Assembly: GCA_016218685.1 (NCBI GenBank)
Contig: JACRDD010000020.1
Location: 1-64,000 of the forward strand
DNA length: 64,000 nt
Origin: Desulfobacterales bacterium
GTDB taxonomy: Bacteria > Desulfobacterota > Desulfobacteria > Desulfobacterales > Desulfosarcinaceae
Direction: 5' to 3'
The notes beneath the pieces are model-generated. The model was not told the DNA's origin. It did not search any database and saw only the letters and a list, made by a program, of their open reading frames with translations. This document shows, one piece after another, positions 10,063-59,024 of the stretch. Position numbers and translations under genes: made by a program. How positions within the stretch are numbered: the first letter of the stretch is position 1; every line of letters starts with the position of its first letter.

Positions 10063-11517
10063 TTAATCGACGGGCGTGCCGATGGGCAGAATGCCGGCGG
10101 CGATCTTGGCCCGCATTTCGTACTTCTTCAACGGCGACTCGTGCAGAATCATCATCTTCTGGGCCGCCATGGAACCCTCGGCGTGCACGGTGGTCACCTC
10201 GTGGAAGGCCGCCTCGTGGGAGGCCACGTGGCGCATGGTTTCGTGGATCATGCGCATGCGCTCTTCGGTGGAGTAATCGGCCGAGCCACCCAGATAATGC
10301 TCCAGGTAGTCGTGAATCTCGGGATTGTCCCAGTCTTTCTTATCCGGCGAAGTGGCCAAGATGCCGCCGCCGATATCCTGGATCAGCTTGACGAACTCGT
10401 GATACTTGCTGGCAAAGTGCAGCTTGGCCATGTTGGCGATGAGCGGGTTGGGCACGGCGATGTCGCCGAACATGACCGGCTTTGCGGCCGCCGCGTCGGC
10501 CAGGGCGCGCAAGGTCTCTACGTAGGCGGCGATGTCCGCCAGTTTCTCGCGGATGTGGCTCACCTTGAACAGGCCGTTGTACTTGGCCATGGCCACAGCG
10601 CAGCCGGCCATGACCTCCACGTTGGGCACCTTGTAGCTGATGGCCGTGAAGCGGTGGAAGGTGGCGAAGGTATAGGCGATGTTCATGGAGTGCTGCCACT
10701 CGCCGCACATGAAGACGCGGTCCCAGGGCACGAAGACGTTGTCGAAGACGATCATGGCTTCGGTGAGCTCGCGCACCGGCCGGTCGGCGTGGAACTCCTT
10801 GTCCGACCAGGGGCCGCGGCCATTGCGGCAGATGAAGGTGATGCCCTTGGTGTTGGCCGGGATGGCGAAACTGACGGCGTAATCGGCCTCGTTTTCGCGC
10901 ATCTGGCGGGTGGGCACCACCATGATTTCGTTGGCCGCCGGCGCGCTGGTGATATGAATTTTAGCGCCTTTGACGAAGATGCCCTCCTTGTTTTTATCCA
11001 CCACATGCAGGTAGTAATCGGGATGCTTCTGGTGGGCCGGCTCCTTGCCTCGATCGCCCTTGACGCAGGTGATGGCGCCGCAGGTGTGCAGATCGTTCTT
11101 GCGCAGGTGCTCGAGAAAATTCTTGGCGTTGGCCTCGTACTGCTTGTTGCCCATCTGCTTGGCCACGGCCATGGCCGCATTGAGACAGTCGGTGCCGATA
11201 TCCTTGCCGAAGGGCAGGCCGCCGGTCAGGCGCATTAAGGTGTGAATGGCCTTGGTGCGGTTGGCCAGATCCTCGGGTGTTCTAGGGGTTACATAAAAAC
11301 GGTTGATGGGTTCACCCGTTTCCGGGTGTTTGGCGATGAGCAGGTCCCTGGTCTTCTGGTCGCCCTTTTGAGCCAGTTCATAAGCGGCGCCGATGGTATC
11401 CACGGTAAGACCCAGAACGCGGTGTTTGGTGATGTCCTCCACCCGTTCGCCGCTGATATAGACTTTGCGGCCATCGCGTAGACTCTGTTTGTACTCCTCA
11501 ACGGTACGAATGCCCAT
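10063..11517 (-). CDS. 4-hydroxybutyryl-CoA dehydratase / 4-hydroxyphenylacetate 3-hydroxylase family protein
   Basis: 484 aa; MGIRTVEEYKQSLRDGRKVYISGERVEDITKHRVL, VKGDRGKEP, GAKIHITSAPAANEIMVVPT family signatures; start at MGIRT within ORF 10063..11586. Confidence 0.85.
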   Translation of the reverse strand: MGIRTVEEYKQSLRDGRKVYISGERVEDITKHRVLGLTVDTIGAAYELAQKGDQKTRDLLIAKHPETGEPINRFYVTPRTPEDLANRTKAIHTLMRLTGGLPFGKDIGTDCLNAAMAVAKQMGNKQYEANAKNFLEHLRKNDLHTCGAITCVKGDRGKEPAHQKHPDYYLHVVDKNKEGIFVKGAKIHITSAPAANEIMVVPTRQMRENEADYAVSFAIPANTKGITFICRNGRGPWSDKEFHADRPVRELTEAMIVFDNVFVPWDRVFMCGEWQHSMNIAYTFATFHRFTAISYKVPNVEVMAGCAVAMAKYNGLFKVSHIREKLADIAAYVETLRALADAAAAKPVMFGDIAVPNPLIANMAKLHFASKYHEFVKLIQDIGGGILATSPDKKDWDNPEIHDYLEHYLGGSADYSTEERMRMIHETMRHVASHEAAFHEVTTVHAEGSMAAQKMMILHESPLKKYEMRAKIAAGILPIGTPVD

Positions 11518-11851
11518 GATCTTTCCCCCTCTTGTTTGTATGGTTGAATGAATCCCCCATAAACCTTCGGGCTTTGTTGCCAGCACGTTCGGTTTACAGC
11601 TTGGACTTGAACGGAATGCCCGCGAAAAAGTTAGATGCTAAAGCGTATTACCGGCCTTGCTTCTCAAGATTCCCTTCTTAAATCAAAGCATCGCCCACAT
11701 TTGATGTAAAGCAGAACAAATACTGAAGCTGGTTCAAACTTATATGAATGATTGGCCGTCCGTCAAGATGACCATAAAATATTTCTGAGCGAGTGTTCGA
11801 TTTATATAAAAATTATTTTATTTATTATTGCAGATAATTAAACCAAAAATG

Positions 11852-22595: not shown

Positions 22596-25500
22596 ATGAG
22601 CAATGTGACAGCTCTCGATGAGGCGGTAGCCAAGGATTGTTTTCCGGGCTACGAAGTGGATGCAGTTGTTTTTTATGGCGATCCGAGTCGCATTTACCGG
22701 GCGCGCCGCCGATCCAACGGCATGCCCGTCATGCTCAAGACGCTACGGGACGAACGTACCGCCCGGGAGGCGTCGGCCTTGCTCAAGCACGAATTCGAGG
22801 TGGCCAAGCGGCTCAATGTATCCAATGTTATTCGGGTATTCGCCCTCGAGCGCCACAACAACCTGCCGGTCATCGAGTTGGAGGATTTCGGCGGCGACTC
22901 CCTGGACAACATCGGCCGGCTGCGGCGCTTCGGCATCGAGGAGCTGCTGGGCATCGCCATCCAGTTATGCCAGGGCCTGATCGAAATCCACGCGGCCAAT
23001 ATTATCCACAAGGACATCAACCCGTCCAACATCGTTTATAATCCCGCCACCGGGGTGGCCAAGATCATCGACTTCGGCATCTCCACCTACCTGACCCGCG
23101 AACAGGCCGCGCTGACCAGCCCCCAGGTGTTCGAGGGCAGCCTGCCGTACATCTCGCCCGAACAGACCGGTCGCATGAACCGCTCCATCGATTACCGCAC
23201 CGATTTTTACTCGCTGGGCGTGACGCTCTACGAGCTGCTCACCGGGCGGCCGCTGTTCATCGTCAGCGAGCCCATCGAGTGGTTCCACTGCCACATCGCC
23301 AAGCAGCCGGTCCCGCCGGCCCAGATCGACCCGGCCATTCCGGCCCCGGTATCCGAAATCGTGATGAAATTGCTGGCCAAAACCGCTGAAGATCGCTACC
23401 AAAGCGCCCAGGGCATCCAGGCCGATCTGCGCCATTGTCTGGAAGAGCTGCGCCAGACCGGTACGATCAAGCCGTTCATATTGGGCGGCCACGATACCTC
23501 CGACCGTTTCCAGATTCCCCAGCGTCTCTACGGCCGCGAAAGTGAAGTGGCTCAATTGCTGCTGAACTTCGAGCGGGTCGGCCGCGGCGGCAGCAAGATG
23601 ATCCTGGTATCGGGATACTCGGGTATCGGCAAGACCTGCCTGATCAAGGAAATCTACAAACCCATCACCGAGCGCCGGGGCCATTTCGTTTCCGGCAAGT
23701 TCGACCAACTGCACCGCAACATTCCCTACAGCGCCCTGGCCGCCGCCTTGCGCGACCTGGTGCGGCAACTTCTGACCGAACCCGAGGAGCACCTGGCCAT
23801 CTGGCGGGCCAAGATCCTGGAGGCGGTGGGTATCAACGGGCAACTGATGATCGATCTGATCCGCGAGCTGGAGCTGATCATCGGGCCCCAGCCGAGCCCC
23901 CCCCAGGTTCCACCGCTGGAGGCCGAGCAGCGCTTTCACCGTGCCTTCCTGCGCTTCATCCAGGTCTTCTGCCGGCCGGAGCACCCCCTGGCGATCTTCC
24001 TGGACGACCTGCAATGGGCCGACAGCGCCAGCATGCGGCTGCTCGACCTGCTGCACCGGGGCGAATCGGGCATCACCCATCTGCTGTTGATCGGCGCCTA
24101 CCGCGACAATGAGGTCCAGACCGGACACCCCGTGGCGCTCTGGCTCAAGGAGATCCGCACCCAGGAGTCGCCGCCCGATGAAATCCGGCTGCGGCCGTTG
24201 AGCATCGAGCATCTGACCAGCATGCTGGCCGATACGCTGGGCGCCGATCGCGTCGGCGTCCAGAGCCTGGCGCAAATCATCGATCAGAAGACCGGCGGCA
24301 ATCCTTTTTTCACCGAAGAGTTCCTCAAGGCCATGCACCAGCAGGGCATGATCGTCTTCTCCCGGACCGACGGCCGCTGGGTCTGCGACATGGATCGCAT
24401 CCGGGGCCAGCGCATCACGGACAACGTCGTGGACCTGATGACCACCAAGCTCCAGCGCCTGGCGCCGGAAACCCGCCGGCTACTCGAACTGGGCGCCTGC
24501 ATCGGCTTCCGCTTCCCCTTGAGCGAACTGGCCGTGGTCACCGAGGAGAAGCCCACGGTGGTGGCCCAGCGCTTGCGCCGGGCCATCGAGGAGGGCTTGA
24601 TCGCCCCTATCGGCGACGCCTACCAGTTGATCGAACTGGAGCAGATGCCGGATCTTTCGGAAGTCACCGTCGAATTCGCCTTTGCCCACGACCGCATCCA
24701 TCAGGCGGCCTATGCCCTCCTGGACCATGCCGGGCGCCGCGAGACCCATCTGAAAATCGGGCGCCTGCTGTGGCAACGCCTAACCGAAGCCGAGCAGAGC
24801 GAGCATCTTTTCGAGATCACCAATCATCTCGACCTGGGCCTGGAACTGATTGACGATCCGGCCGAACGCCTGGCCCTGAGCCGCCTGAACCTGGCCGCCG
24901 GCCGGCGCGCCAAGAGCGCCAACGCCTACCTGCCGGCCCTGGAATATTTGCAGATGGCGCTGGCCTTGTTGGACGAGGACGATTGGAAGACCGACTACCA
25001 GTTGGCCCTTGAAATCCACGCCGAAGCGGCCGAAGGCGCGTATCTGGCCGGCGCCTATGAAACCATGGACGAGCTGCTGGCCGCTGGTCTGGGCCATGCC
25101 CGGGACCTGCTCGACAAGGTCAAGTTCTACCTCGTGCAACTGTCGGCCTGCATGGCCCGCGGCCAACTGCTGGAAGCCATCGATCTGGCCAAGCCGGTGC
25201 TCGCCCAACTGGGCCACCACTACCCGGCCAAACCGACCATGGGCCACATCCTGGCGAAACTGGTTCAACTCAAATGGCGCCTGCGCGGCAAGAGCATGGA
25301 CGACCTGCGCAACCTGCCCGAGATGACCGATCCCAAACACCGGGCCGCCATGAGCATCGGCACCAAAATCGGCAGCGCGGCCATGTTCGCCCAGCCCAAT
25401 CTGCTGCCTTTGATGATCCTGCATGGCGCCAAGGTCTCCTTCGAACAGGGCCATGCCCCCGAATCTTTGGCCACCTACGCGGCCCTGGGGATGATCTTCG

Positions 25501-27584
25501 CCGAAGTCCTGGGCGATGCCGATCGCGGCCTGGCCTTCGGTCAATTGGGCATAGAGCTGACCCAACGTTTTCAGGCCAAGACCATCGAAGGCCGGGTGCA
25601 TCATGTTTACAACGCCATGGTGCGCCATTGGAAAGAACCCGCCCGCAACAGCCTCGAGCCCCTGCACGAAGCTTTCCGGCTCTGTCTGGAACAAGGCGAT
25701 TTCGAATATGCCGCCCACGCCGTGGCCGTGCGGCTGGCCTATGCCTACGAATGCGGCCAGGACCTCAAGCACCTGGCCAACGAACTGATCGAATTCCGGG
25801 CCAGCATGAAACCGCTCAAGCAAGGCCCGCGGGTTTACTATCTGGATTCCATGTTGCAGAGGGTCGATTGTCTGATGGGCAATGCCCCCGATCCGGCCCG
25901 GCTCAAGGGCCCGTACTACGATATCGATGATATGACGCCCAACAACGAGAAGTCCGGCGACAAGAGCCTGGTGATCAGCGATCGCATGAGCCAGATGCTG
26001 CTCTTCTATCACTTCGGGCATCACCGGGAGGCTCTGGCCCTGGCGGGCCAGAAAAATGCCGGAACGAGCGGCGGGGTGCGCGGCATGTACTTCGCCCTGA
26101 CCTATTTTTTGATGGATACCCTGGTCCGTCTGGCCAACGTGCCCGGCGCCGACAAACGCACCCGGCGGGGCTTGCTGCGCAAGGCGGCTTCCAACCATCG
26201 CATGCTCAAACGCTGGGCCAGGATGAATCCGGCCAACGCCTTGAACAAGCAGCGCCTGGTGGAAGCCGAGCGCAAGCGCGTCCTGGGCCGCCACTTCGAA
26301 GCCCATATGCTCTACGACGAATCCATCCGCCTGGCCCGGGGCCAGGGGTTTATCCATGAGGAGGCCCTGGCCTATGAGCTGTGTGGCAGCATGCATGCCC
26401 AGGCCGGCCGCACGACGCTGGGCGATGCCTATCTGGCCAAGGCGCGCGACCTCTATCGCCATTGGGGCGCCCAGGCCAAGGTGGACGACCTGAAACGCCG
26501 TTATCCGCAACTGATCGAAAGACTGCATCCCAAGACGGGTAAAACCACCTCTTTGGCCGCCCCCATGGCCAGCGTCGATGTGGGCTCGCTGATCAAGGCG
26601 CTCAAGGCCATTGCCGAGGAGAAGATCCACAGCCGCATGGTGGAAACCATCATCGCCACCTCCATCGAGTTTGCCGGCGCCCAGCAAGGCATGCTCTTGC
26701 TGCGCAATCCCGGAGGGGTACTCAATATCGAGGGTGAGGCTTCCGTGGACGGCGGCGATCCGCGCATTCTGCAATCCATCCCGCTGACGGCCGCCCGACT
26801 GCCCCTGGCGGTCATCCACTACGTGGCCCGCACCCGGAGCAGTATTGTGATCCATGACGCCCAGCAACCCAGCGATCAGGTACCGGGACTCAACCAGGAC
26901 CCCTATATCAAGGAGCGGGGCATCCGGTCGGTGTTGTGTCTGCCGATCCTGACGGGCAACAAGGAGCAGGGCGATCTGATCGGCATCCTCTACCTGGAGA
27001 ACAACCGCGCCAGCGGCACCTTCACCCAGGAGCGCTTCGATACCCTGGAGATCATCTGCCTGTCGGCCGCCGGCCGTCTGGAGCTGTCGCGCAAGGCGGT
27101 GGTCGACGGCCTCACCGGGCTGTTCAACCACGACTACTTCCAGAATCTGATGAGCCAGGAGTTTGCCTCGGCCCGACGGCACGGCCGGGATCTTTCCATT
27201 ATTCTGATCGACATCGATCACTTCAAGCGCTTCAACGACACCTGGGGCCATCAGGTGGGCGACCAGGTGCTGCGCGAAGTGGCCCAGGTCATCAAGACCG
27301 CCTGCCGCGGCGGCGACACCGTGGCGCGCTATGGCGGCGAAGAGATGGCGGTGATCCTGCCCATGGCCAATTGTGAAAACGCCAGAATCGTGGGCGAACG
27401 CATCCGTGCCTCGGTGGAGGCTCACCGGGTGATGCACAACGAGGAGGCCTTGCAGGTGACCATCAGCCTCGGCCTGTCCATATTGGACAGCGCTGTCCGC
27501 GACAAGGATGCCCTCATCCGCCTGGCCGACACCGCCCTCTACCGCTCCAAGGCCGAGGGCCGCAACCGGCTGACGGTGGCCTGA
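22596..27584 (+). CDS. Ser/Thr protein kinase - AAA ATPase - GAF - GGDEF multidomain protein
   Basis: Kinase IIHKDINPSNIVYN and IIDFGIS; Walker A VSGYSGIGKTCLI; Walker B LAIFLDDLQWAD; GAF; DGLTGLFNHDYF..RGGDTVARYGGEEM. Confidence 0.92.
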   Translation: MSNVTALDEAVAKDCFPGYEVDAVVFYGDPSRIYRARRRSNGMPVMLKTLRDERTAREASALLKHEFEVAKRLNVSNVIRVFALERHNNLPVIELEDFGGDSLDNIGRLRRFGIEELLGIAIQLCQGLIEIHAANIIHKDINPSNIVYNPATGVAKIIDFGISTYLTREQAALTSPQVFEGSLPYISPEQTGRMNRSIDYRTDFYSLGVTLYELLTGRPLFIVSEPIEWFHCHIAKQPVPPAQIDPAIPAPVSEIVMKLLAKTAEDRYQSAQGIQADLRHCLEELRQTGTIKPFILGGHDTSDRFQIPQRLYGRESEVAQLLLNFERVGRGGSKMILVSGYSGIGKTCLIKEIYKPITERRGHFVSGKFDQLHRNIPYSALAAALRDLVRQLLTEPEEHLAIWRAKILEAVGINGQLMIDLIRELELIIGPQPSPPQVPPLEAEQRFHRAFLRFIQVFCRPEHPLAIFLDDLQWADSASMRLLDLLHRGESGITHLLLIGAYRDNEVQTGHPVALWLKEIRTQESPPDEIRLRPLSIEHLTSMLADTLGADRVGVQSLAQIIDQKTGGNPFFTEEFLKAMHQQGMIVFSRTDGRWVCDMDRIRGQRITDNVVDLMTTKLQRLAPETRRLLELGACIGFRFPLSELAVVTEEKPTVVAQRLRRAIEEGLIAPIGDAYQLIELEQMPDLSEVTVEFAFAHDRIHQAAYALLDHAGRRETHLKIGRLLWQRLTEAEQSEHLFEITNHLDLGLELIDDPAERLALSRLNLAAGRRAKSANAYLPALEYLQMALALLDEDDWKTDYQLALEIHAEAAEGAYLAGAYETMDELLAAGLGHARDLLDKVKFYLVQLSACMARGQLLEAIDLAKPVLAQLGHHYPAKPTMGHILAKLVQLKWRLRGKSMDDLRNLPEMTDPKHRAAMSIGTKIGSAAMFAQPNLLPLMILHGAKVSFEQGHAPESLATYAALGMIFAEVLGDADRGLAFGQLGIELTQRFQAKTIEGRVHHVYNAMVRHWKEPARNSLEPLHEAFRLCLEQGDFEYAAHAVAVRLAYAYECGQDLKHLANELIEFRASMKPLKQGPRVYYLDSMLQRVDCLMGNAPDPARLKGPYYDIDDMTPNNEKSGDKSLVISDRMSQMLLFYHFGHHREALALAGQKNAGTSGGVRGMYFALTYFLMDTLVRLANVPGADKRTRRGLLRKAASNHRMLKRWARMNPANALNKQRLVEAERKRVLGRHFEAHMLYDESIRLARGQGFIHEEALAYELCGSMHAQAGRTTLGDAYLAKARDLYRHWGAQAKVDDLKRRYPQLIERLHPKTGKTTSLAAPMASVDVGSLIKALKAIAEEKIHSRMVETIIATSIEFAGAQQGMLLLRNPGGVLNIEGEASVDGGDPRILQSIPLTAARLPLAVIHYVARTRSSIVIHDAQQPSDQVPGLNQDPYIKERGIRSVLCLPILTGNKEQGDLIGILYLENNRASGTFTQERFDTLEIICLSAAGRLELSRKAVVDGLTGLFNHDYFQNLMSQEFASARRHGRDLSIILIDIDHFKRFNDTWGHQVGDQVLREVAQVIKTACRGGDTVARYGGEEMAVILPMANCENARIVGERIRASVEAHRVMHNEEALQVTISLGLSILDSAVRDKDALIRLADTALYRSKAEGRNRLTVA

Positions 27585-29037: not shown

Positions 29038-30894
29038 CTACGGCCCGAGCAGGCCGATGAAGCAGCCGCCGCCACCGCCACCGCCGCCGCCCGAGGTGTC
29101 GGAAAGGTCGGCGTGGGCGTTGTCCGCCTCGTCGTTCAGGGCCTTGAGCGCATTGAGACGGCCGCCGGTTTGGGAAGTATCGGCCAGGGCATCCACCAGG
29201 TCCACGCTGTCGAGGATCGCGCTTTTCAAGTCGGCGGGCGTCATCTGCGGATCGCGGGATAGCACCAGGGCGGCCACGCCCGAAACCAAGGGGGCGGCCA
29301 TGGAGGTGCCGCTCATGTAGGCGTAGGCCTCTTCATCCGAAACCGCGCTGACGGTCACGTTGTCGATGAGATAGCCGGCCAGGGCGTTGCTGTCGTTGCT
29401 GGTGAAGCGGAAACGGAAGTAGAGCCGGGGGCTGCGGTCCCAGTGGCCCAGATCCGACATGACCAGGGTCCAGTAAGGATAATTTCCGTTAAGGCCCCCA
29501 TATTTGATGGTGCCCCCCACCTGGAGCGGCAGGTTGGACCAGGAGACGGCGTCGGCGGAAACCTCTACATATAGGTAATCCCGGAAGGCCTCGCTGGCGC
29601 CGGTGATCTGAAAGGTTAATCGACAGGCCGTCGCGGCGCTCAAGTCCAAGGAAGGGGACATGGCCCAGTTGTTGGCACCATTGCTGTAGATCTCTTCCGT
29701 GGTCAGGGACAGTACCGGGTTGGACCCGCCGTCGGATTCCAAACGCACATCCCAACTGTCCGGGGTGCCGCCCGTGGTCCAACCGGCCAGGGGCGTGGCG
29801 CTGAAATTTTCCGTCAGCAGACTTTGCCAATCCATGCCCAGGCTGTAAATACGCGATCCCGGGGCCGCCAAATGCACGCTGTGCAGGCCGTAGTTGGAAA
29901 ACCAGGCCAGTTCATCCCGCTGATCGCTGGCCGCCACCGCGATGATGTTTTGCAGGTCGAAACCGGCCGGATAAAACTCATGGCGGTCGGCGTCATCGGC
30001 ATTGTTGCCGGCGGCGCACACGAAGAGGGCATTGGCGCTGGCCATGACATTGTATAAGGAAGAACTGTAACCGCCACTGCCCCAGGAACAGTTGACGATG
30101 CGCGCCCCTTGGGTCAAGGCATAGCCGATGGCCGCGATGGCGTCAGCCACCGTGCCGGTATCGAAACCGTTCATGAAGCGCAGCGGCATGAGGCGCACCT
30201 GCCGGGCCACCCCGGTGATGCCCTTGCCGTTGTCTCCCCGGGCCGCGATGATGCCGGCCACATGGGTGCCATGACCGCTGACGTCCTGGGGGCAGTTGTC
30301 CTCGTCGGCAAAATCCCACCCCTGAAGATCATCCACATAACCGTTTTGGTCATCGTCGATCCCGTTGTCCGCAATCTCGCCGGAATTGGCCCACAGGTTG
30401 GCAGCCAGATCGGGATGGGTCAGATGGCATCCGGTATCCACCACCGCCACCACCACGGGTTCATTGCCGGTGGCCTGTTCCCAGGCCCGCACGGCGTCGA
30501 TATCGGCGCCCGCGGTGCCGATGGTGCCGCTCACGCTCTGGCCGCTGTTGGCCAATGCCCACTGTTGATCGAAGTATGGGTCGTTGGGCAGGCTCTGGGT
30601 GTAAAGCAGGTAGTTGGGCTCGACCAAAACCACATCCGGATCGCCCCCATAGATGGCCAGGGCCTCTGGGACGCTCATGTTTTCGGGCAGGGCCAGTTGC
30701 ACCACCCGGCCCCCGGCCAGGCTGCGCACGGCACGCGCCCCCAGGTCCTGCTCCGAGCGCGTCAACGCCGCGGCGCGAGCTTCGGGCCTGAACTGAATCA
30801 GCACTTCACCGGGTTTGTAGGCCGGCGCCTGGGCTTCGGCGGCCCCTGCCACATACAAGCACAACATCATTGCCAGGAGAACATGGCGGTACAT
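29038..30894 (-). CDS. S8 subtilisin-like serine peptidase with poly-Gly-CFI C-terminal tail
   Basis: Signal peptide; VVAVVDTGCHLTHPDL (Asp), GHGTHVAGIIAARGDN (His), YMSGTSMAAPLVSGVAALVL (Ser); ends DTSGGGGGGGGGCFIGLLGP. Confidence 0.92.
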   Translation of the reverse strand: MYRHVLLAMMLCLYVAGAAEAQAPAYKPGEVLIQFRPEARAAALTRSEQDLGARAVRSLAGGRVVQLALPENMSVPEALAIYGGDPDVVLVEPNYLLYTQSLPNDPYFDQQWALANSGQSVSGTIGTAGADIDAVRAWEQATGNEPVVVAVVDTGCHLTHPDLAANLWANSGEIADNGIDDDQNGYVDDLQGWDFADEDNCPQDVSGHGTHVAGIIAARGDNGKGITGVARQVRLMPLRFMNGFDTGTVADAIAAIGYALTQGARIVNCSWGSGGYSSSLYNVMASANALFVCAAGNNADDADRHEFYPAGFDLQNIIAVAASDQRDELAWFSNYGLHSVHLAAPGSRIYSLGMDWQSLLTENFSATPLAGWTTGGTPDSWDVRLESDGGSNPVLSLTTEEIYSNGANNWAMSPSLDLSAATACRLTFQITGASEAFRDYLYVEVSADAVSWSNLPLQVGGTIKYGGLNGNYPYWTLVMSDLGHWDRSPRLYFRFRFTSNDSNALAGYLIDNVTVSAVSDEEAYAYMSGTSMAAPLVSGVAALVLSRDPQMTPADLKSAILDSVDLVDALADTSQTGGRLNALKALNDEADNAHADLSDTSGGGGGGGGGCFIGLLGP

Positions 30895-35172: not shown

Positions 35173-36366
35173 TCAACTTGCCGCTCGTTCGCCCCAAACC
35201 CCGGCGATCTTGGCACCGCAGAACAGGCAGGCGTCGCCTTTCAGATGATACTGGGGCAACTGGTAGCCGTGGCGCTCGATAAGGAGCCGGCCGCAGGCGT
35301 GGCAGAAGGTGTGATTGCCCGCATGACCGGGCACGTTGCCCAGGTAGACATGGCGCACGCCCTGTGCTCGGGCGATGTCGCGGCAGCGCTCCAGGGTGGA
35401 GACCGGCGTGGCCGCCAGGCGGTCCAGTTTGTACTGGGGGAAAAAGCGCAAAAAATGCAGCGGATGGTCCGGCCCCAGGTTCTCGACGATCCAGCGGCAC
35501 ATGGCCTGGACCATCTGTAAATCGTCCGTGTAACCCGGCACGACCAGGTTGGTGATCTCCAGGTGCACGTTGCGGGCGTGCAGGGTCTTGAGCGTCGCGA
35601 GCACCGGCTCGAGCCGGCCGCCGTTGAGCGTGCGGTAGACCTCGTCGCTGAAGGCCTTGAGGTTGACGTTGGCGCCATCCACCAGGTCGCACAGGTCGTT
35701 CAGGGGCTCGGGGTTGATGTAGCCGTTGGAGATCCACAGGTTCTTGATGCCGGCGGCCTTGGCCGGCCGGGCAATGGCGGTCATGTACTCGATAAAGGTA
35801 ATCGGCTCGGAGTAGGTGTAGGCGATGGCCCGGCAACCCTCCTTGCCCGCTGCGGCCACGGCCGTTTCGGGGGCCAGGGGTTCATGCCGCACCTGTTCGG
35901 GAGTAAATTGGGAGATCTCCCAGTTCTGGCAGTTGAGGCAACGAAAATTGCAGCCGGCCGCCGCCAGGGAGTACACCCGGATGCCGGGCATGAAATGGTA
36001 GAGCGGCTTTTTCTCCACCGGATCGATGTGCACGGCGCTGGGATTGCCGAAGGCCAGGCTGTAGAGCGTGCCGTCCAGGTTGACCTTGGAGCGGCAGACG
36101 CTGCGGTCTCCGGGCGAGAGCAGGCAGCGGTGGGGGCAGACGCCGCACACCACGCGGCCGTCGCCCATCTTTTCGTAGCGGTAGGCCTCGTGGGACCAGG
36201 GCCAGAGCTGTTCGGGGGCATCTCCTTTGAAAACGCGGCCCCGGATCTCCTCGGGCGCCTTTGCTTCCGAGCCCCGGCCAAAGGGCCAGAACGCCTGGGC
36301 CGAGGCGGTGCAGCCCAGCCAGGCGGCACTGCCGGCGATGAAGGTGCGTCGATCCATGGCCGCCAT
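35173..36366 (-). CDS. amrS: AmmeMemoRadiSam system radical SAM enzyme, with Tat-like leader
   Basis: CX3CX2C motif AAGCNFRCLNCQNWEISQ; N-terminus MDRRTFIAGSAAWLGCTASAQA; next to MEMO1/AMMECR1 gene. Confidence 0.9.
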   Translation of the reverse strand: MAAMDRRTFIAGSAAWLGCTASAQAFWPFGRGSEAKAPEEIRGRVFKGDAPEQLWPWSHEAYRYEKMGDGRVVCGVCPHRCLLSPGDRSVCRSKVNLDGTLYSLAFGNPSAVHIDPVEKKPLYHFMPGIRVYSLAAAGCNFRCLNCQNWEISQFTPEQVRHEPLAPETAVAAAGKEGCRAIAYTYSEPITFIEYMTAIARPAKAAGIKNLWISNGYINPEPLNDLCDLVDGANVNLKAFSDEVYRTLNGGRLEPVLATLKTLHARNVHLEITNLVVPGYTDDLQMVQAMCRWIVENLGPDHPLHFLRFFPQYKLDRLAATPVSTLERCRDIARAQGVRHVYLGNVPGHAGNHTFCHACGRLLIERHGYQLPQYHLKGDACLFCGAKIAGVWGERAAS

Positions 36367-36367
36367 C

Positions 36368-38500
36368 TCATCCTCCTCCGGTCGTCAGCGACCGGCGCAT
36401 CAGCAATATGCTCACGGTTTTGGCGGCAATCAACACCGCGAGCGTGCCGCTCAGCCCGAGATAGGGAATCAGCAGCGTGCTGGTCAGCAGCGCGCCGCAG
36501 GCGCCGCCGATCAGATCCACGGAAAAGATGCGCGCCGCGGCCCGGTTGTCGTCTCCCAGCCGGGCCAGGGCCAGCGGGATCTGAAACCCGCAAGCCATGG
36601 CCAGGACAAAACCGGCGGCGTAGTAAAATCCGGACGGCAGCCGTTCGCCGCCCCAGTGCAGGCAGGCCATCAGCGCCGCCAGCACAAGCACGATGGCGGC
36701 GTCGGCAGCCATCAGCCCGGCGGCCGCGGCCCGGTAGCGGCTGCCCAGCCAGGCGCCGGGCAGCAATCCGGCCAGGGTAGCGGTCACCAGCATGCCGATC
36801 TGGCCGTAGATATAGCCCAGGAAGATCTGGAAGGCGAAAATCAGCGCGATCTGGCCGCCCATGGCCACCAGGCCGGTGGAGAACAGCGTATACTCCTCGC
36901 GCCGCAGGCGCAAGCCGTATAGGATCAAGGCTACGGACAAGAGCAGCATAAGGCCGTAAGGCGAGGCATCGAACTTGGTGAACCACTGCTCCCAGGCCAC
37001 CCGCATCAGGTAGGGTCGCGTGTCGCGGTTGAGCGGCGCCGAGACCTCGATATGCCGCTCCAGGGCCTGGATGCGCTCGGGGGTCACGTCGCCCTGGAAA
37101 TAAGGCCCCACCACCTGGGTGGAGATGCCCAGGCGCGCCAGCCGCTGGGGAATGTCCAGGGATAAAGGCGTCTGGCGGCACAAGAAGAAGATGCGCTCAC
37201 CGGGCAGCAGTTGCACATGGCGGAAGTGGCGCCGGGCCGTGGCGTGCAGGCAGGAGATCTTGCGTTGCTGGGGCGTCGTAAGATAATTGGCGGCCCCCTC
37301 CACATGGAAGCCGAAGATGCCCCCGGGCGTCAGGTGTTCGGCCGCCAGTTGGAAGAAGCGTTCGGTGTAAAAGCGGTTGAGCTGGAAGGTGTCGGGCTCG
37401 GGCAGGTTGAGCAAGATGGCGTCATACTTCTGGGCATCGCGCCGCAGCCACTCCCGGCCGTCGGCGATGACGGGCTGGAGCCCCGCCACCTGGCGGCTCA
37501 AGCCATACGCGGTCATCAGACGCGCCACGGCCGGGTCCAGTTCCACATAGGTGATGCCGGCCGGCCGGTATTTGGCAATCTCCTCCAGGACCCCGCCCTG
37601 GGCCGAGATCAGCAGCACTTGGCCGACCCGCGCCAACTGGCTGAGCGGGTAGTGCACGATCTGTTCGGCCAGGGAGGGGTCCTGGGTGCCGGACCAGGGC
37701 CGACCGTCGGCAAACAAGGTCATCTGCTCCTGGTCCTGGTGGACGGTGAGCCGGGCGTAGCGCGACTCTTCGTAATGCAACAGGCGGCCCACCGAAGGTC
37801 GCAGCAAGGCGCGCTCGCCGCTCATGCCCAGCAGCAACAGTGCAAGGACGGCCGCGGCGCCTATCCATCCCCGCCGGCCGGCCAGGCGCGCCGTGGCCCC
37901 CAGGAGCGCCAGAGCGCCGGCCAGCAAGGCTTGCATGGGGGTCAGCCAGTGCACCAGCACGAAGGTGAACAGCGCACCGCCGGCGATGTCCCCCAGGTTG
38001 TCCGCCAGGTAGATACGCGTGCCGCCGTAGGCCGGCACTTGCCGCCGCAGCACAAAGAGGCTGTAGGGCAGCACATAGCCCACCAGCAAGCCGTAGGGCG
38101 CCATGGTCAGCAGGGTGAAGGCGAAAATCGGATAGAAGCCCACCGAAAGGCCGAGGCCGAACACGAGCGGCCGCAGCAACCGGATGGCGGCCAGTTGAAG
38201 AGGGCCAAGGGCGGCCAGGAGCAAAGAGAGCCAAACCAGTCGGCCCGGGGCGGCCCGTTTGGCCCCAAGGGCCAGGCGGCTGCCCACGCCGCCCAGCACC
38301 AGCCAGTTGAACAGCACCAGGGCGATGGTGACTTCATTGCCCTGGAACTGGGCCATGTATTCGCGGATCAGAAGCAGTTGGGTCACCACCGAGGCGATGC
38401 CGGTGGCTACCACCAGATGCACGATGCGGCGTTCAGTGGGGTTCTTCAAAGTATTGCACTTGATAGGTCTGCACCTCCAATTGGCCCTTGCGCCAGGCAT
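36368..38500 (-). CDS. Polytopic membrane protein with spermidine-synthase-like Rossmann domain
   Basis: TM segments flanking VLLISAQGGVLEEIAKYRPAGITYVELDPAVARLM..DGREWLRRDAQKYDAILLNLPEPDT; true start may be an internal TTG near 38449. Confidence 0.8.
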   Translation of the reverse strand: MPGARANWRCRPIKCNTLKNPTERRIVHLVVATGIASVVTQLLLIREYMAQFQGNEVTIALVLFNWLVLGGVGSRLALGAKRAAPGRLVWLSLLLAALGPLQLAAIRLLRPLVFGLGLSVGFYPIFAFTLLTMAPYGLLVGYVLPYSLFVLRRQVPAYGGTRIYLADNLGDIAGGALFTFVLVHWLTPMQALLAGALALLGATARLAGRRGWIGAAAVLALLLLGMSGERALLRPSVGRLLHYEESRYARLTVHQDQEQMTLFADGRPWSGTQDPSLAEQIVHYPLSQLARVGQVLLISAQGGVLEEIAKYRPAGITYVELDPAVARLMTAYGLSRQVAGLQPVIADGREWLRRDAQKYDAILLNLPEPDTFQLNRFYTERFFQLAAEHLTPGGIFGFHVEGAANYLTTPQQRKISCLHATARRHFRHVQLLPGERIFFLCRQTPLSLDIPQRLARLGISTQVVGPYFQGDVTPERIQALERHIEVSAPLNRDTRPYLMRVAWEQWFTKFDASPYGLMLLLSVALILYGLRLRREEYTLFSTGLVAMGGQIALIFAFQIFLGYIYGQIGMLVTATLAGLLPGAWLGSRYRAAAAGLMAADAAIVLVLAALMACLHWGGERLPSGFYYAAGFVLAMACGFQIPLALARLGDDNRAAARIFSVDLIGGACGALLTSTLLIPYLGLSGTLAVLIAAKTVSILLMRRSLTTGGG

Positions 38501-39899
38501 CCGCAGACAAGCCGGCCTTCAAACACAAGTGCGAGAGGAAGGCCTCGGGCTTGGGCAACTGTTCCCACACCTGGGGCAGGAAGGTGGCGCTGGCGTACCC
38601 TTTGCGCAGGATGACGCCATCCAGGTTGGGCCGCAGCTTGGCGATCAGGTCATCCGCGCCATCATAGCGCAAGGGCTGGGGCTCGGTGAGCACGCTCACC
38701 TCGATGGTCACCCGACTCAGCTCCTCGGCCGTCAGCGGCCCAAAACGCGGGTCGTGAAAGGCGGCATTGAGCGCATGGGTGCGCACCCCCTCCACCAGCG
38801 GTTCGCGTCCGGTCAGCGTGCCGATGCAGCCGCGCAGGTCGCCGCGGATTTTAAGGGTCACGAAGGTCCCGCAAGGTGCCTGCAGGGCTGGATCGGCGGG
38901 TGACCCGGCGTTGGGGATTCCTTCGGCCGGACGTCCGAAGTGCTCGTTGAGGGTGTTGCGGGCCACGTACAACAGCACGCGGCCTTGCTCCGGGGTCAGG
39001 GTAGATGGTTTGGGCGGCATGGCGTTTTCTCCAAAAAAGGCAATGGCCGCGTAACCCACCACGGCCGAGCGGTCGCCGGCGGTATCGCCGCTGTTGGCAT
39101 AGTGCAGCAGCACCGGATGCCAGTGGCGACTGCGCGCCAGGTAGAGCAGCACGGCCAGGGGGTAGCGGCCGCAGGCGCGATTCTCTTCTTTCTCCAGCAG
39201 CGCGGCATCCAGGCGCAACAGGGCTGCGATGGTTTCGCGGTCCCTGGCCATGGCGGGATCGTAGGACAAATAGTGCGAAAGGTCGCTGCTGACCGCCACC
39301 AGCGTGCTCTCATCCAATAAAGAGGCCACGGCCCGCCCCACCCTTTCGGGGTCGCAGCGGCCCACCACCAGCGGCACCAGGGTCATGCCCGGAAGATCGG
39401 TTTGCAAAAAGGGCAGTACCACTTCCAGGCTGTGCTCGCTGCGGTCCGATTCCGGGATTGAACGGAAGAGCGCCGTGTCGGCCCCCAACTGCCGGGCATC
39501 GCCATGCAGCGGTACGGTTCCCAGGGGGGTGGCGTACCCCTCCACGCCGCTCACGGCAACATTCGTGAAGCCCACCTGATGATCGGGACCCATGAGGATC
39601 ACTTTGCTCAGACCGCTGCCGGCCAGCACCCGGTGGGCGTGGGCCGCGGTGAGGCCGGAGTATATGTAGCCGGCGTGGGGCAGGATCAGGGCGCGCAGAG
39701 GGCCGGGAGGGGCCGTCCAAGGCGTCTGGGCGGCCCGGGTGGTCAGCGCGGCGATGGTCTGCTTCAGTTCATCAGGATCACTGGGGTAGAATTTGCCGGC
39801 CCACGCGGCCGGGCGCACATCGACGGCCGCGGCGGCGGTCGCCCAGCAGAGCGTGCAACAGATGAAAAAGAGTCTTAGCGTCGCGCCCATCTTTTTCAC
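38433..39899 (-). CDS. AmmeMemoRadiSam system protein B (MEMO1) fused to protein A (AMMECR1), with signal peptide
   Basis: MKKMGATLRLFFICCTLCWATAAAA leader; MEMO1 LILPHAGYIYSGLTAAHAH, MGPDHQVGF, VSSDLSHYLSYD; AMMECR1 KIRGDLRGCIGTLTGREPL. Confidence 0.92.
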   Translation of the reverse strand: MKKMGATLRLFFICCTLCWATAAAAVDVRPAAWAGKFYPSDPDELKQTIAALTTRAAQTPWTAPPGPLRALILPHAGYIYSGLTAAHAHRVLAGSGLSKVILMGPDHQVGFTNVAVSGVEGYATPLGTVPLHGDARQLGADTALFRSIPESDRSEHSLEVVLPFLQTDLPGMTLVPLVVGRCDPERVGRAVASLLDESTLVAVSSDLSHYLSYDPAMARDRETIAALLRLDAALLEKEENRACGRYPLAVLLYLARSRHWHPVLLHYANSGDTAGDRSAVVGYAAIAFFGENAMPPKPSTLTPEQGRVLLYVARNTLNEHFGRPAEGIPNAGSPADPALQAPCGTFVTLKIRGDLRGCIGTLTGREPLVEGVRTHALNAAFHDPRFGPLTAEELSRVTIEVSVLTEPQPLRYDGADDLIAKLRPNLDGVILRKGYASATFLPQVWEQLPKPEAFLSHLCLKAGLSADAWRKGQLEVQTYQVQYFEEPH

Positions 39900-44560: not shown

Positions 44561-45811
44561 ATGCGCATCGCGGTGATCGGCGCCGGCATTTCGGGATTGT
44601 TATGCGCCTACCTGCTCAGCGACGAGCACGAGGTGATCGTCTATGACGCCAACGATTATATCGGCGGCCACACCCACACCATCGATGTGCATCTGGCGGG
44701 CCGCACCTATGCCGTGGACACCGGCTTCATCGTGTTCAATCGCAAGACCTATCCCAACTTTTTGAAGCTGATGCAAATCCTGGGCGTGGCCTGGCAACCG
44801 TCGGACATGAGCTTCAGCCTCCACTGCCTGCGCACCGGCCTCTTTTACAGCCCGAGCACCCTCAACAGCCTGTTCGCCCAGCGGTCGAATATCCTGCGAC
44901 CGGCTTTTTACCGCATGCTGCTGGATGCCCTGCGCTTCCGGCGCGAAGCCCTGGCGCTGCTGCAAAGCGATGACGACCGCACGACCCTGGCGGCCTACCT
45001 GCGCCAAAACCGCTACAGCGACCTGTTCATCCAAAAGTTTATCATCCCCATGGGGGCGGCCATCTGGTCGGCGGACCCGGACCGGTTCCGCGACTTTCCG
45101 GCGCGCTACCTGGTGGAGTTCTTCCACAACCATGGCTTTCTCAACCTGCGCGACCAGCCCCAGTGGCTGGTGCTCAAGGGCGGCTCGCGCCAGTATATCG
45201 AGCCGCTCACCCGGCGCTTTCGCGACCATATCCGCCTCAACGCGCCGGTGGCGGCCGTTCGACGGGCTGCGGACCAGGTGACGGTGACCACCGCCGGCGG
45301 CGATCAAGATCATTTCGACCGGGCGATCATCGCGGCCCACAGCGACCAGGCCCTGGCCATGCTGGCCGATCCCAGCGACCGCGAGCGGGAGATCCTGGGT
45401 ACCATCCCCTACCAGGAGAACCACACCATTCTGCACACCGACAACAACGTGCTGCCGCCCAAACGTGCGGCCTGGGCCAGTTGGAACTACCGCATCCCCA
45501 AATCGGAGCGAGGGCGGGTGGCGCTGACCTATGACATGAACCTGCTCCAGGGGCTGGAGGCTCCCGAGGAGTTTTGCGTCAGCTTGAACATGGCCGAAGA
45601 TATCGATCCACGGAAGATCATCCGATCGCTGGTCTATCACCATCCCGTGTACGATCCCAAAAGTCTGGCGGCCCGACGCGACCAGGAGACGCTCAAAGGC
45701 GCCAATCGCACCTATTTTTGCGGCGCTTACTGGGGCTACGGATTCCACGAGGACGGCGTCAACAGCGCCCTGGCCGTCTGCACCCATTTCGGCAAGGCCC
45801 TGGCACCATGA
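44561..45811 (+). CDS. FAD-dependent (amine oxidase-like) oxidoreductase
   Basis: MRIAVIGAGISGLLCAYLLSDEHEVIVYDANDYIGGHT dinucleotide-binding motif; C-terminal YFCGAYWGYGFHEDGVNSAL. Confidence 0.9.
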   Translation: MRIAVIGAGISGLLCAYLLSDEHEVIVYDANDYIGGHTHTIDVHLAGRTYAVDTGFIVFNRKTYPNFLKLMQILGVAWQPSDMSFSLHCLRTGLFYSPSTLNSLFAQRSNILRPAFYRMLLDALRFRREALALLQSDDDRTTLAAYLRQNRYSDLFIQKFIIPMGAAIWSADPDRFRDFPARYLVEFFHNHGFLNLRDQPQWLVLKGGSRQYIEPLTRRFRDHIRLNAPVAAVRRAADQVTVTTAGGDQDHFDRAIIAAHSDQALAMLADPSDREREILGTIPYQENHTILHTDNNVLPPKRAAWASWNYRIPKSERGRVALTYDMNLLQGLEAPEEFCVSLNMAEDIDPRKIIRSLVYHHPVYDPKSLAARRDQETLKGANRTYFCGAYWGYGFHEDGVNSALAVCTHFGKALAP

Positions 45812-46566
45812 AAAGCTGTATCTATGAAGGCACCGTCCGCCACCGCCGCTACCGACCGCGGCCCAACCACTTCCAGTACCGCCTGTTTTTCATGTACCTG
45901 GACCTGGCCGAGCTGCCCCGGCTCTTCGACGATCACCCCCTGTGGTCCTACGGCCGGCCCAATCTGGCCTGGTTCAAACGCAGCGACCATTTCGGGGACC
46001 CGCGCATGCCCATGGACCAGGCCGTGCGCGACCTGGTCGAGGCGCGCACCGGCCAAAGACCCGCCGGGCCGATCCGCATGCTGACCCATCTGCGCTATTT
46101 CGGCCACTGCTTCAACCCGGCCACCTTTTTCTTCTGCTACGACCGCCGGGACCAGCGGCTGGAAACCATCGTCGTGGAGATCCACAACACCCCCTGGGGC
46201 GAGGTCTTCTGTTATGTGCTGCCGGAGGCGCGCAACGAGCATCCCCTGGCGCAGTGGCGGCGCTTTCGTTTCGCCAAGGCGTTTCATGTATCGCCTTTCA
46301 TCGACATGGATATCGATTACGACTGGCGCTTTCGGGTGCCCGGCGACCAAATCCGGGTGCACATGATCGATTATCAGGGGGGGGCACCGCTGTTCGACGC
46401 CAGCCTGCGCCTGCAACGGCGACCGATCAGCCACCAGTCCCTGACCCGGGTGCTGTTCCAATACCCTTTGATGACCGGCAAGGTCATCGGCTTGATCTAC
46501 TTTCAGGCCTTGCGGCTGCTGTTGAAGAAAACCCCTTTTTACGAACACCCCCAAAAAAGCGGGTAA
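45808..46566 (+). CDS. DUF1365 family protein
   Basis: MKSCIYEGTVRHRRYRPRPNHFQYRLFFMYLDLAEL; 4-nt overlap with the upstream FAD gene. Confidence 0.9.
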   Translation: MKSCIYEGTVRHRRYRPRPNHFQYRLFFMYLDLAELPRLFDDHPLWSYGRPNLAWFKRSDHFGDPRMPMDQAVRDLVEARTGQRPAGPIRMLTHLRYFGHCFNPATFFFCYDRRDQRLETIVVEIHNTPWGEVFCYVLPEARNEHPLAQWRRFRFAKAFHVSPFIDMDIDYDWRFRVPGDQIRVHMIDYQGGAPLFDASLRLQRRPISHQSLTRVLFQYPLMTGKVIGLIYFQALRLLLKKTPFYEHPQKSG

Positions 46567-46639
46567 ACCGTTTGCTCTTCAAGGGGGGCGGCATTATCTT
46601 CGCGGACAAGATCCTTGGTCCTGGAAGTAAAAATAGAAA

Positions 46640-47911
46640 ATGGAGTCGAAGCAGATGGCCGACACGATTCTTCCTTTCACGCTGGCTCAATCGCAAACGC
46701 TGAAAACCCGTAGCATGGACCGCGTGGCGCGGCGCATGGTCCTGGCCTTGCTCGAAAAGATTCGTCATGGCCAGATCACCCTCGCCGACCCCGAGGGCAC
46801 CTACATCTTCGGAGCCCCTTCCACCAACCTCGCCATGCACCCGGTGGTACGCATCCACCACCCGCGGTGCTACGCCTGGATGCTTTCGGGCGGCAGCATG
46901 GGCGTGGCCGAAGCCTATATGGCCGGGCTCTGGTCCACGGAGCGGTTGACCGACGTGGTGCGCCTGGTGGTGGCCAACCAGGCCGTATTCAAGGGTTTGG
47001 ACAGCGGCTGGATGCGCCTCACCGAGCCGTTCTACAAAGTCGCCCACTGGCTGCGACGCAATACCGTGGCCGGCAGCCGGCGCAACATCGTGGCCCACTA
47101 TGACCTGGGCAACGACTTCTACCGGCTCTTTCTCGACCCCACCATGACCTATTCGGCGGGCATCTTCGAGGGGCCGGAGAGCACTCTGGAAGAGGCTTCC
47201 GTCGCCAAGTACGACCGCATCTGCCGCAAACTGCGGCTCGGCCCCGGCGATCATGTGGTCGAGATCGGCACCGGCTGGGGCGGGTTTGCCTTGCACGCGG
47301 CCACGCGCTACGGTTGCCGTGTCACCACCACCACCATTTCGGAACAGCAGCACGCCTTCGCCCGGGAGCGCTTCCGCGCGGCGGGCCTGACCGAGCGCAT
47401 CACGCTGCTCAAGGAAGACTACCGCCATCTGAACGGCACGTTCGACAAGCTGGTCTCCATCGAGATGATCGAAGCCGTGGGCCACCACTTCCTGGGCGAC
47501 TTCTTCCGAAAATGCAACGCCTTGCTCAAAGCCGACGGCCTGATGGCCCTGCAGGCCATCACCATCCGCGACCAGGAGTACGATCAGCACCGCCGTTCGG
47601 TGGATTTCATCAAACGCTATATCTTTCCGGGAAGCTGCATTCCCAGCGTCTCCGTGATGCTGGAAGCCGTCCGCAGGAAAACCGACCTGGCCCTGTGCCA
47701 CCTGGAAGATCTCACGCCCCACTACGCGCGCACCCTGGCCGCCTGGCGCAAGCGCTTTTTCGACAATATCGGCCAGGTGCGCGAAATGGGTTTTTCGGAG
47801 GCGTTCATCCGCATGTGGGAGTACTATCTGTGCTACTGCGAAGGCGGCTTTGCCGAGCGCCATATCGGCAATGTGCAAATGGTTCTGGCCAAACCGCTGT
47901 TCCGGTCATAA
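46640..47911 (+). CDS. Cyclopropane-fatty-acid-synthase-like SAM methyltransferase
   Basis: VAHYDLGNDFYRLFLDPTMTYSAGIFEGPESTLEEA, GDHVVEIGTGWGGFALHAA. Confidence 0.92.
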   Translation: MESKQMADTILPFTLAQSQTLKTRSMDRVARRMVLALLEKIRHGQITLADPEGTYIFGAPSTNLAMHPVVRIHHPRCYAWMLSGGSMGVAEAYMAGLWSTERLTDVVRLVVANQAVFKGLDSGWMRLTEPFYKVAHWLRRNTVAGSRRNIVAHYDLGNDFYRLFLDPTMTYSAGIFEGPESTLEEASVAKYDRICRKLRLGPGDHVVEIGTGWGGFALHAATRYGCRVTTTTISEQQHAFARERFRAAGLTERITLLKEDYRHLNGTFDKLVSIEMIEAVGHHFLGDFFRKCNALLKADGLMALQAITIRDQEYDQHRRSVDFIKRYIFPGSCIPSVSVMLEAVRRKTDLALCHLEDLTPHYARTLAAWRKRFFDNIGQVREMGFSEAFIRMWEYYLCYCEGGFAERHIGNVQMVLAKPLFRS

Positions 47912-58120: not shown

Positions 58121-58289
58121 TCGGCCAATGTTACGTTTTGTAAGCTTTACCGACAGCGAAACTCCCCCCATTTTTCCCGGACCGCGCGCACTTATGGTCA
58201 AAATATATTTCATGTGTTTTTTCAAATAGTTAAATCCAAAAATAGGACTACCCGCTCAAAATGAGATGTCGACCAACTTTACAGTTTAT

Positions 58290-58310
58290 TGTTTTCGAAG
58301 ATCGAAAACA
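58290..58310. promoter_or_regulatory. Palindrome, candidate PrsR enhancer site
   Basis: Perfect 9-bp arms TGTTTTCGA-AGA-TCGAAAACA, about 36 nt upstream of a sigma54 promoter. Confidence 0.6.
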
Positions 58311-58345
58311 TATTTTATGACAACCAATACAATAAGTTACAACAA

Positions 58346-58360
58346 TGGCACCCATGTTGC
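58346..58360 (+). promoter_or_regulatory. Sigma54 (-24/-12) promoter
   Basis: TGGCAC-CCATG-TTGC exact match to the consensus; GG-N10-GC spacing; 61 nt upstream of the PEP-CTERM ATG. Confidence 0.85.
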
Positions 58361-58421
58361 TATGGATTTGTCTGGGGTGAAACCAGTGAAGCGAACTCTA
58401 TCCACAAAAGGAAAATGTGAA

Positions 58422-59024
58422 ATGAAAAAGATTACGGTTTTAATGTGCAGTTTGATGCTGGTGTTGAGCCTGGCGGGGGCGGCAGGCGCGGTACCGACGA
58501 CTTGGACGGACAGCATTACTTCTTTTAATAATGTTGATGATGTTTATGTCGGCAATTTTAGATCGTATAGCTATACCCACAATGTCGCCGATGATGGTTT
58601 CCAAGGCTACGCGATGGGCGGAGATGATTTTATAACCAGCGGCCTGCTGTCGGTGTCGCTCTATGACGATGCTAATGATCCAACAAGACGGTTTTTTTGC
58701 CAAGTTTCGCTTCAAGAAGGGGAGACCGCGCTTATTGATCAACCCGGATTCTTTGGAGATCGTATCTATAATTTTAGCTATGCCAACGAATTATATGGTG
58801 TATCCTTAGCGGGAATTTTGCAGTTGAATCTAAGCGGCCTTTTGGAGGTGACCATTAGGTCTTTGGGCGGTGATTTTTATCTGGGTTCATCTACGCTGTA
58901 TGCCTTTGGTGATAATGGCAGAGGCGCTGCCCCGGTTCCCGAACCGGCCACCCTGCTGCTGCTGGGCACCGGACTGCTGGGAATTGTGGGCGCCAATCGT
59001 AAACGCCTCGGCAAAAAAGCGTAG
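58422..59024 (+). CDS. PEP-CTERM sorting-domain protein
   Basis: Signal peptide MKKITVLMCSLMLVLSLAGAAGA; C-terminus VPEPATLLLLGTGLLGIVGANRKRLGKKA. Confidence 0.95.
   Translation: MKKITVLMCSLMLVLSLAGAAGAVPTTWTDSITSFNNVDDVYVGNFRSYSYTHNVADDGFQGYAMGGDDFITSGLLSVSLYDDANDPTRRFFCQVSLQEGETALIDQPGFFGDRIYNFSYANELYGVSLAGILQLNLSGLLEVTIRSLGGDFYLGSSTLYAFGDNGRGAAPVPEPATLLLLGTGLLGIVGANRKRLGKKA

Follow-up and report, generated by a model that had tools for sequence, protein, structure and literature searches.

A probable exported form of the AmmeMemoRadiSam system with its own membrane partner in a Desulfobacterales genome

A three-gene operon of a Desulfobacterales bacterium probably encodes an AmmeMemoRadiSam system whose soluble parts are exported; a membrane partner accompanies it, and leaderless paralogues of AmrS and MEMO are encoded elsewhere in the genome. 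Conservation of AMMECR1 and MEMO1 extends from prokaryotes to humans, both have links to disease, and the bacterial triad that includes them and the radical SAM enzyme AmrS has no settled function. The families encoded here are already known and it is the exported, operon-encoded version with a membrane partner that appears to be new; neither exported radical SAM enzymes nor an exported operon version with this partner were found in the literature searched, outside of which lay Burroughs et al. 2019 (cited in PMC7159879), a study of MEMO gene contexts that is reportedly the most relevant earlier context work and may already note them.

The operon lies in a 64,000-nucleotide stretch of DNA (the window) and consists of three intact minus-strand open reading frames that overlap or abut their neighbors, with the transcription order MEMO–AMMECR1 fusion, membrane protein, AmrS (table 1). 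The initial annotation of the window had described this arrangement on a single strand and had read the AmrS cluster motif as CX3CX2C (CNFRCLNC), and both descriptions hold. The family assignments are secure by curated NCBIfam cut-offs for AmrS (TIGR04337, 354 bits against a cut-off of 220), and similarly for the MEMO (TIGR04336, 227 against 26) and AMMECR1 (TIGR04335, 198 against 99) parts of the fusion. AmrS probably starts at ATG 36366 (MAAMDRRTF...), which is closely preceded by GGAGG and lies 1 nt past the membrane-gene stop, and the fusion may start at ATG 39890 instead of GTG 39899, a choice that leaves its signal peptide unchanged. For the membrane gene, ATG 38500 is doubtful because several homologues have stop codons inside the match or in the stretch aligned to the first residues; by this comparison TTG 38449 is the more likely start, with which the gene still overlaps the upstream fusion gene.

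Table 1. Features of the predicted exported AmmeMemoRadiSam operon (window coordinates).
Feature	Coordinates	Strand	Basis or remarks
MEMO1–AMMECR1 fusion, 488 aa	38433..39899	-	TIGR04336 and TIGR04335 above cut-offs
Predicted Sec-type signal peptide of fusion, residues 1-25	39825..39899	-	hydrophobic leader in homologues
MEMO domain (PF01875, residues 31-286), metal ligands H, H, C (PHAGY, GPDH, ACGR) and SDLSH	39042..39809	-	
AMMECR1 domain (PF01871), LRGCIG motif	38448..38969	-	
Membrane protein, 7TM / spermidine-synthase-like domain / 7TM	36368..38500	-	AlphaFold2, PF01564, operon conservation
N-terminal 7-helix membrane unit, residues 21-227	37820..38440	-	model helices
Spermidine-synthase-like domain, residues 235-482, predicted periplasmic	37055..37798	-	Foldseek, K/R bias
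C-terminal 7-helix membrane unit, residues 514-707	36380..36961	-	model helices
AmrS radical SAM enzyme	35173..36366	-	TIGR04337; nearest fold is pyruvate formate-lyase activating enzyme
Predicted AmrS Tat signal peptide MAAMDRRTFIAGSAAWLGCTASAQA	36292..36366	-	conserved RR/RK-x-F motif
AmrS accessory Cys C71, C74, C78, C88; possible metal or cluster site	36094..36147	-	
AmrS cluster motif CX3CX2C (CNFRCLNC; C136, C140, C143)	35929..35952	-	
AmrS accessory Cys C352, C355, C377, C380; possible zinc or auxiliary cluster	35218..35304	-	

Elsewhere, the window encodes a 4-hydroxyphenylacetate 3-hydroxylase-type protein (10063-11586, minus strand), a 1662-aa protein combining Ser/Thr kinase, AAA ATPase, GAF and GGDEF domains (22596-27584, plus strand), a subtilase-family protease with a fervidolysin-type prodomain (29038-30894, minus strand) and a 252-aa protein with a PEP-CTERM sorting motif at its C terminus (58266-59024, plus strand). 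An FAD amine oxidase-type protein and, downstream of it, a CMAS cyclopropane-fatty-acid-synthase-like SAM enzyme (44561-47911, plus strand) lie outside the conserved module.

The AmrS leader combines the features of a Tat signal peptide (an S/T-R-R-x-F motif, a hydrophobic h-region and an A-x-A site), and TatC is present in the source genome. When leaders were called in homologues by explicit rules (an RR motif plus a hydrophobic stretch) rather than by SignalP, an in-frame N-terminal extension with RR-x-F and a hydrophobic stretch was found in 106/114 AmrS encoded near a homologue of the membrane gene. The remaining eight comprise two with a plain motif that the rule missed, one masked by Ns and five leaderless proteins, which stand apart from a distant membrane homologue. 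An alignment of 25 AmrS shows no variation at Arg3 and Phe6 and either R or K at the second Arg position, with the remaining leader variable; [STND]-R-R-x-F fits 98 of the 122 Tat motifs found in AmrS leaders. Leader status also follows descent in an 82-row AmrS tree, one side of which is entirely leaderless (37/37 rows) and the other almost entirely leader-bearing (41/45, the four exceptions including one rule-missed leader and one sequence at a short contig end), such that four changes of the label suffice. In the AlphaFold2 model of AmrS (pLDDT 84), the leader forms a short helix that is followed by a low-confidence stretch to approximately residue 38.

Export signals are equally persistent in the other soluble component. 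Signal peptides are present in 81/84 distinct MEMO–AMMECR1 fusions (one exception holds Ns) and in all five stand-alone MEMO proteins encoded near the membrane gene. Nine of the ten stand-alone MEMO proteins encoded away from it have none, and the tenth, which does, sits beside a signal-bearing AMMECR1 and a Tat-leader AmrS. In three genomes in which AMMECR1 stands alone in the operon, AMMECR1 bears a signal peptide of its own, and each of these genomes encodes elsewhere a MEMO with a signal peptide in addition to a leaderless MEMO. The independent retention of an export signal by each half of the split fusion is strong evidence of selection on location. From these leaders, both AmrS and the MEMO–AMMECR1 fusion are predicted to be exported. 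The initial annotation had proposed a twin-arginine leader for the former and a Sec-like leader for the latter, and had named their conservation in orthologues beforehand as a point on which this proposal should be judged; in both families the leaders proved to be conserved.

The exported copies have not decayed. The CX3CX2C motif of AmrS is invariant in 116/116 leader-bearing and 54/54 leaderless sequences, both groups of accessory cysteines are invariant in 170/170 and all 11 family cysteines are unchanged in 116/116 leader-bearing copies. The MEMO metal ligands are likewise invariant in 84/84 fusions (the ligands of human MEMO1, which binds Fe or Cu, are H49, H81 and C244; PMC11081632), and AMMECR1 retains RGC[IVM]G in 132/132. 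Because all of these cysteines and metal ligands are invariant, catalysis looks to be retained in the exported AmrS and MEMO–AMMECR1 copies, as judged from residue conservation. Two additional cysteines, at AmrS positions 223 and 287 (window about 35497-35691), are enriched in leader-bearing copies (102 and 107 of 116, against 7 and 8 of 54 leaderless copies). A periplasm-specific C223–C287 disulfide was considered and is not claimed here, because the two positions do not strictly covary and lie on non-adjacent helices.

We surveyed the distribution of the module within the phylum, taking in 80 named membrane-gene loci that are nearly all labelled Desulfobacterota-type or Deltaproteobacteria. 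About 30 order-level genomes have AmrS, MEMO–AMMECR1 and the membrane gene arranged as in the window; in others the arrangement is permuted (membrane gene/AmrS/MEMO–AMMECR1 and AmrS/MEMO–AMMECR1/membrane gene). Among 60 genomes of the order, 24 encode both the exported fusion and the membrane gene, three only the fusion, three only the membrane gene and 30 neither (Fisher p 2.0e-10, for a hand tally that scored the fusion by open-frame length and the membrane gene by long matches, in which individual entries could change and genomes that are related count as if independent). No leaderless AmrS with a membrane gene nearby was found at 40 further control AmrS loci; for 24 of the 116 AmrS with a leader, the available sequence shows no membrane gene, many of these cases lying on short flanks, and distant homologues of the membrane protein also sit in other contexts. 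A search for plasmid-borne homologues of the membrane protein returned only partial matches to its spermidine-synthase-like domain, and clustering of flanking open reading frames at 118 loci, in search of a further conserved neighbor or substrate gene, returned only a widespread response-regulator family and scattered housekeeping genes. The source genome also encodes a leaderless AmrS (contig C22) and a leaderless MEMO (contig C1), and the only AMMECR1 found in this 65%-complete assembly is the one in the window; in two other genomes, a leaderless MEMO and AMMECR1 lie close together in addition to the exported fusion. Co-conservation of the membrane gene, which had also been set in advance as a test, thus holds both in the operon and across genomes. 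The proposal of an envelope-localised module with a dedicated membrane partner is supported as a prediction, with its "cell-surface" location replaced by "periplasm-facing" as there is no sign of an outer-surface position.

A second radical SAM family, which falls under the TIGR04337 cut-off, also has members with Tat leaders (L137:3279-4364, plus strand; L140:3056-4138, minus strand; L268:4391-5464, minus strand), each of which adjoins a membrane-protein homologue or a Tat-leader AmrS. Loci L231 and L260 encode members of this family that have no leader.

The protein encoded between the other two genes, which the initial annotation had recognized as polytopic and spermidine-synthase-like, is modelled by AlphaFold2 as seven helices, a spermidine-synthase fold and seven further helices (pLDDT 93.7, pTM 0.92), a total of 14 in which the 56-residue last helix is counted as two. 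The two seven-helix units are an internal repeat (hhalign P-value 1.2e-9) and the domain that they flank matches Spermine_synth (PF01564, 44.9 bits against a cut-off of 22.9) and, by Foldseek, aminopropyltransferases (2e-11 for 1uir). Because K/R density is 0.174 on N-in loops against 0.024 on other loops, with the same sign in 87/87 homologues, the domain is predicted to face the periplasm. R46, E47, E56 and R107 of the N-terminal unit are invariant in 87/87 homologues and, from the helix direction in the model, would lie near the periplasmic face. Residues E320 and D347, at the positions that contact the SAM ribose and adenine respectively, are also invariant in homologues. The catalytic Asp of the IxDxxDP motif is replaced by N365, and among 66 close homologues this position is N in 43 and D in only nine; the lack of a typical catalytic Asp that had been noted at LNLPEPDT is hence a real loss in the clade. 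The altered GGxxxE region (the SAQGG loop) is likewise as first described, with Q301 at the acidic position of GxG(D/E)G, which is not conserved in homologues (E, G, Q, R or V, with E in about half of the close ones). The membrane protein is not a normal spermidine synthase.

Comparison with characterized families places the module within known systems and separates it from each. As in the AmmeMemoRadiSam system, all three components are present above cut-offs and adjacent, with cluster, metal and RGCIG motifs intact; in contrast to that system, each soluble part bears an export signal, MEMO is fused to AMMECR1, there is a dedicated 14-helix membrane partner and leaderless paralogues coexist. 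The membrane protein shares a transmembrane unit and a SpdSyn-fold domain with other membrane spermidine-synthase-like proteins (NF002956/PRK03612 and the fused MFS/SpdSyn NF037959), to which it has weak but significant matches that fall below cut-offs; it differs in that the catalytic Asp is replaced and that 7TM units flank the domain. The nearest solved fold to AmrS, with a weak sequence match, is pyruvate formate-lyase activating enzyme; however, AmrS is set apart by N- and C-terminal groups of Cys and by a Tat leader, and its operon lacks a glycyl-radical enzyme.

It appears that machinery thought to be only cytoplasmic would work outside the inner membrane. Tat moves folded, cofactor-loaded proteins and hence suits AmrS, which would be made and folded in the cytoplasm, receive its Fe–S cluster there and then be exported. 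The metal-binding MEMO–AMMECR1 protein would leave by Sec and could load its metal outside, and the third gene product would reside in the inner membrane as two seven-helix units around a periplasm-facing SpdSyn-fold domain. Given the predicted leaders and domain orientation, all catalytic domains would thus meet at the periplasmic face, a location for which the sequence support is good, in parallel to the leaderless paralogues in the same cells. We tentatively hypothesize that AmrS performs radical chemistry on an envelope substrate together with MEMO–AMMECR1, the substrate being perhaps a lipid, an isoprenoid or quinone or an exported protein, and that the membrane protein handles SAM or an adenosyl compound derived from it at the membrane face, either by supplying it or by acting much like a methyltransferase, as the fungal 7TM enzyme NHMT does. 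Radical SAM turnover outside the cytoplasm, with the 14-helix protein supplying SAM or handling adenosyl products at the periplasmic face, is a possible but by no means assured reading of the predicted layout; against it, neither SAM nor a low-potential reductant is known to occur in the periplasm.

A doubtful alternative, with a precedent for the membrane protein, is that the module matures a periplasmic protein, with the membrane protein as a SAM methyltransferase and AmrS and MEMO–AMMECR1 further modifying the same protein. The precedent is fungal NHMT (AN4663), a seven-transmembrane SpdSyn-like N-terminal histidine methyltransferase which, as described, begins with a 7TM unit, continues into a SpdSyn-like domain that lacks the conserved acidic residue of GxG(D/E)G and acts on secretory-pathway proteins, showing that a 7TM protein of this kind can methylate secretory proteins; its authors note that limited SAM in the ER poses a difficulty (PMC10349129). 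The acidic residue is likewise not conserved in the membrane protein described here, for which methyltransfer is putative. However, the bacterial protein has a second 7TM unit after the domain, which has no described counterpart in NHMT, and is encoded in an operon with a radical SAM enzyme, and no target protein is conserved among the flanking open reading frames at the 118 loci.

In an unlikely variant the proteins are still exported, but mature AmrS serves in electron transfer or metal handling as the carrier of a cluster or metal, paired with an Fe- or Cu-binding MEMO, rather than as a working radical SAM enzyme outside the cytoplasm. Such a role would be in keeping with SAM not being known to be available in the periplasm, with Fe or Cu binding by human MEMO1 and with the eight accessory cysteines that AmrS holds beyond its cluster motif. 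However, disuse of SAM should have let the cluster and SAM-contact residues drift, and their invariance counts against this role: CX3CX2C remains unchanged, as do further positions that AmrS with and without leaders have in common, and the membrane partner retains E320 and D347, where the ribose and adenine of SAM would be contacted. Polyamine chemistry in the envelope, with the membrane protein as an aminopropyltransferase that uses decarboxylated SAM, is improbable; aminopropyltransferases are its best structural neighbors and E fills the acidic position in about half of its close homologues, but that position varies, the catalytic Asp is mostly lost and every NCBIfam aminopropyltransferase equivalog model scores the protein far under its cut-off. 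Finally, it is scarcely credible that the enzymes are cytosolic and the leaders artefacts of mis-called starts, for although the starts come from raw open reading frames and leave a few codons of doubt, leaders with RR-x-F and hydrophobic leaders turn up in frame in one family after another, leaderless paralogues begin directly at the core domain and split genes keep one signal each.

An exported AmmeMemoRadiSam module, as a complete second copy across the membrane, would narrow the substrate of the system to what can be reached from the periplasm and would name a fourth partner, and the leaderless paralogues in the same cells would serve as internal controls for a testable system. We consider the module to be of high interest because a long-open function becomes testable at a defined place. 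If AmrS does use SAM in the periplasm, radical SAM chemistry can no longer be assumed to take place only in the cytoplasm; and if the membrane protein serves a periplasmic radical SAM enzyme, its distant homologues beside the second Tat-leader radical SAM family would make it a more general device.
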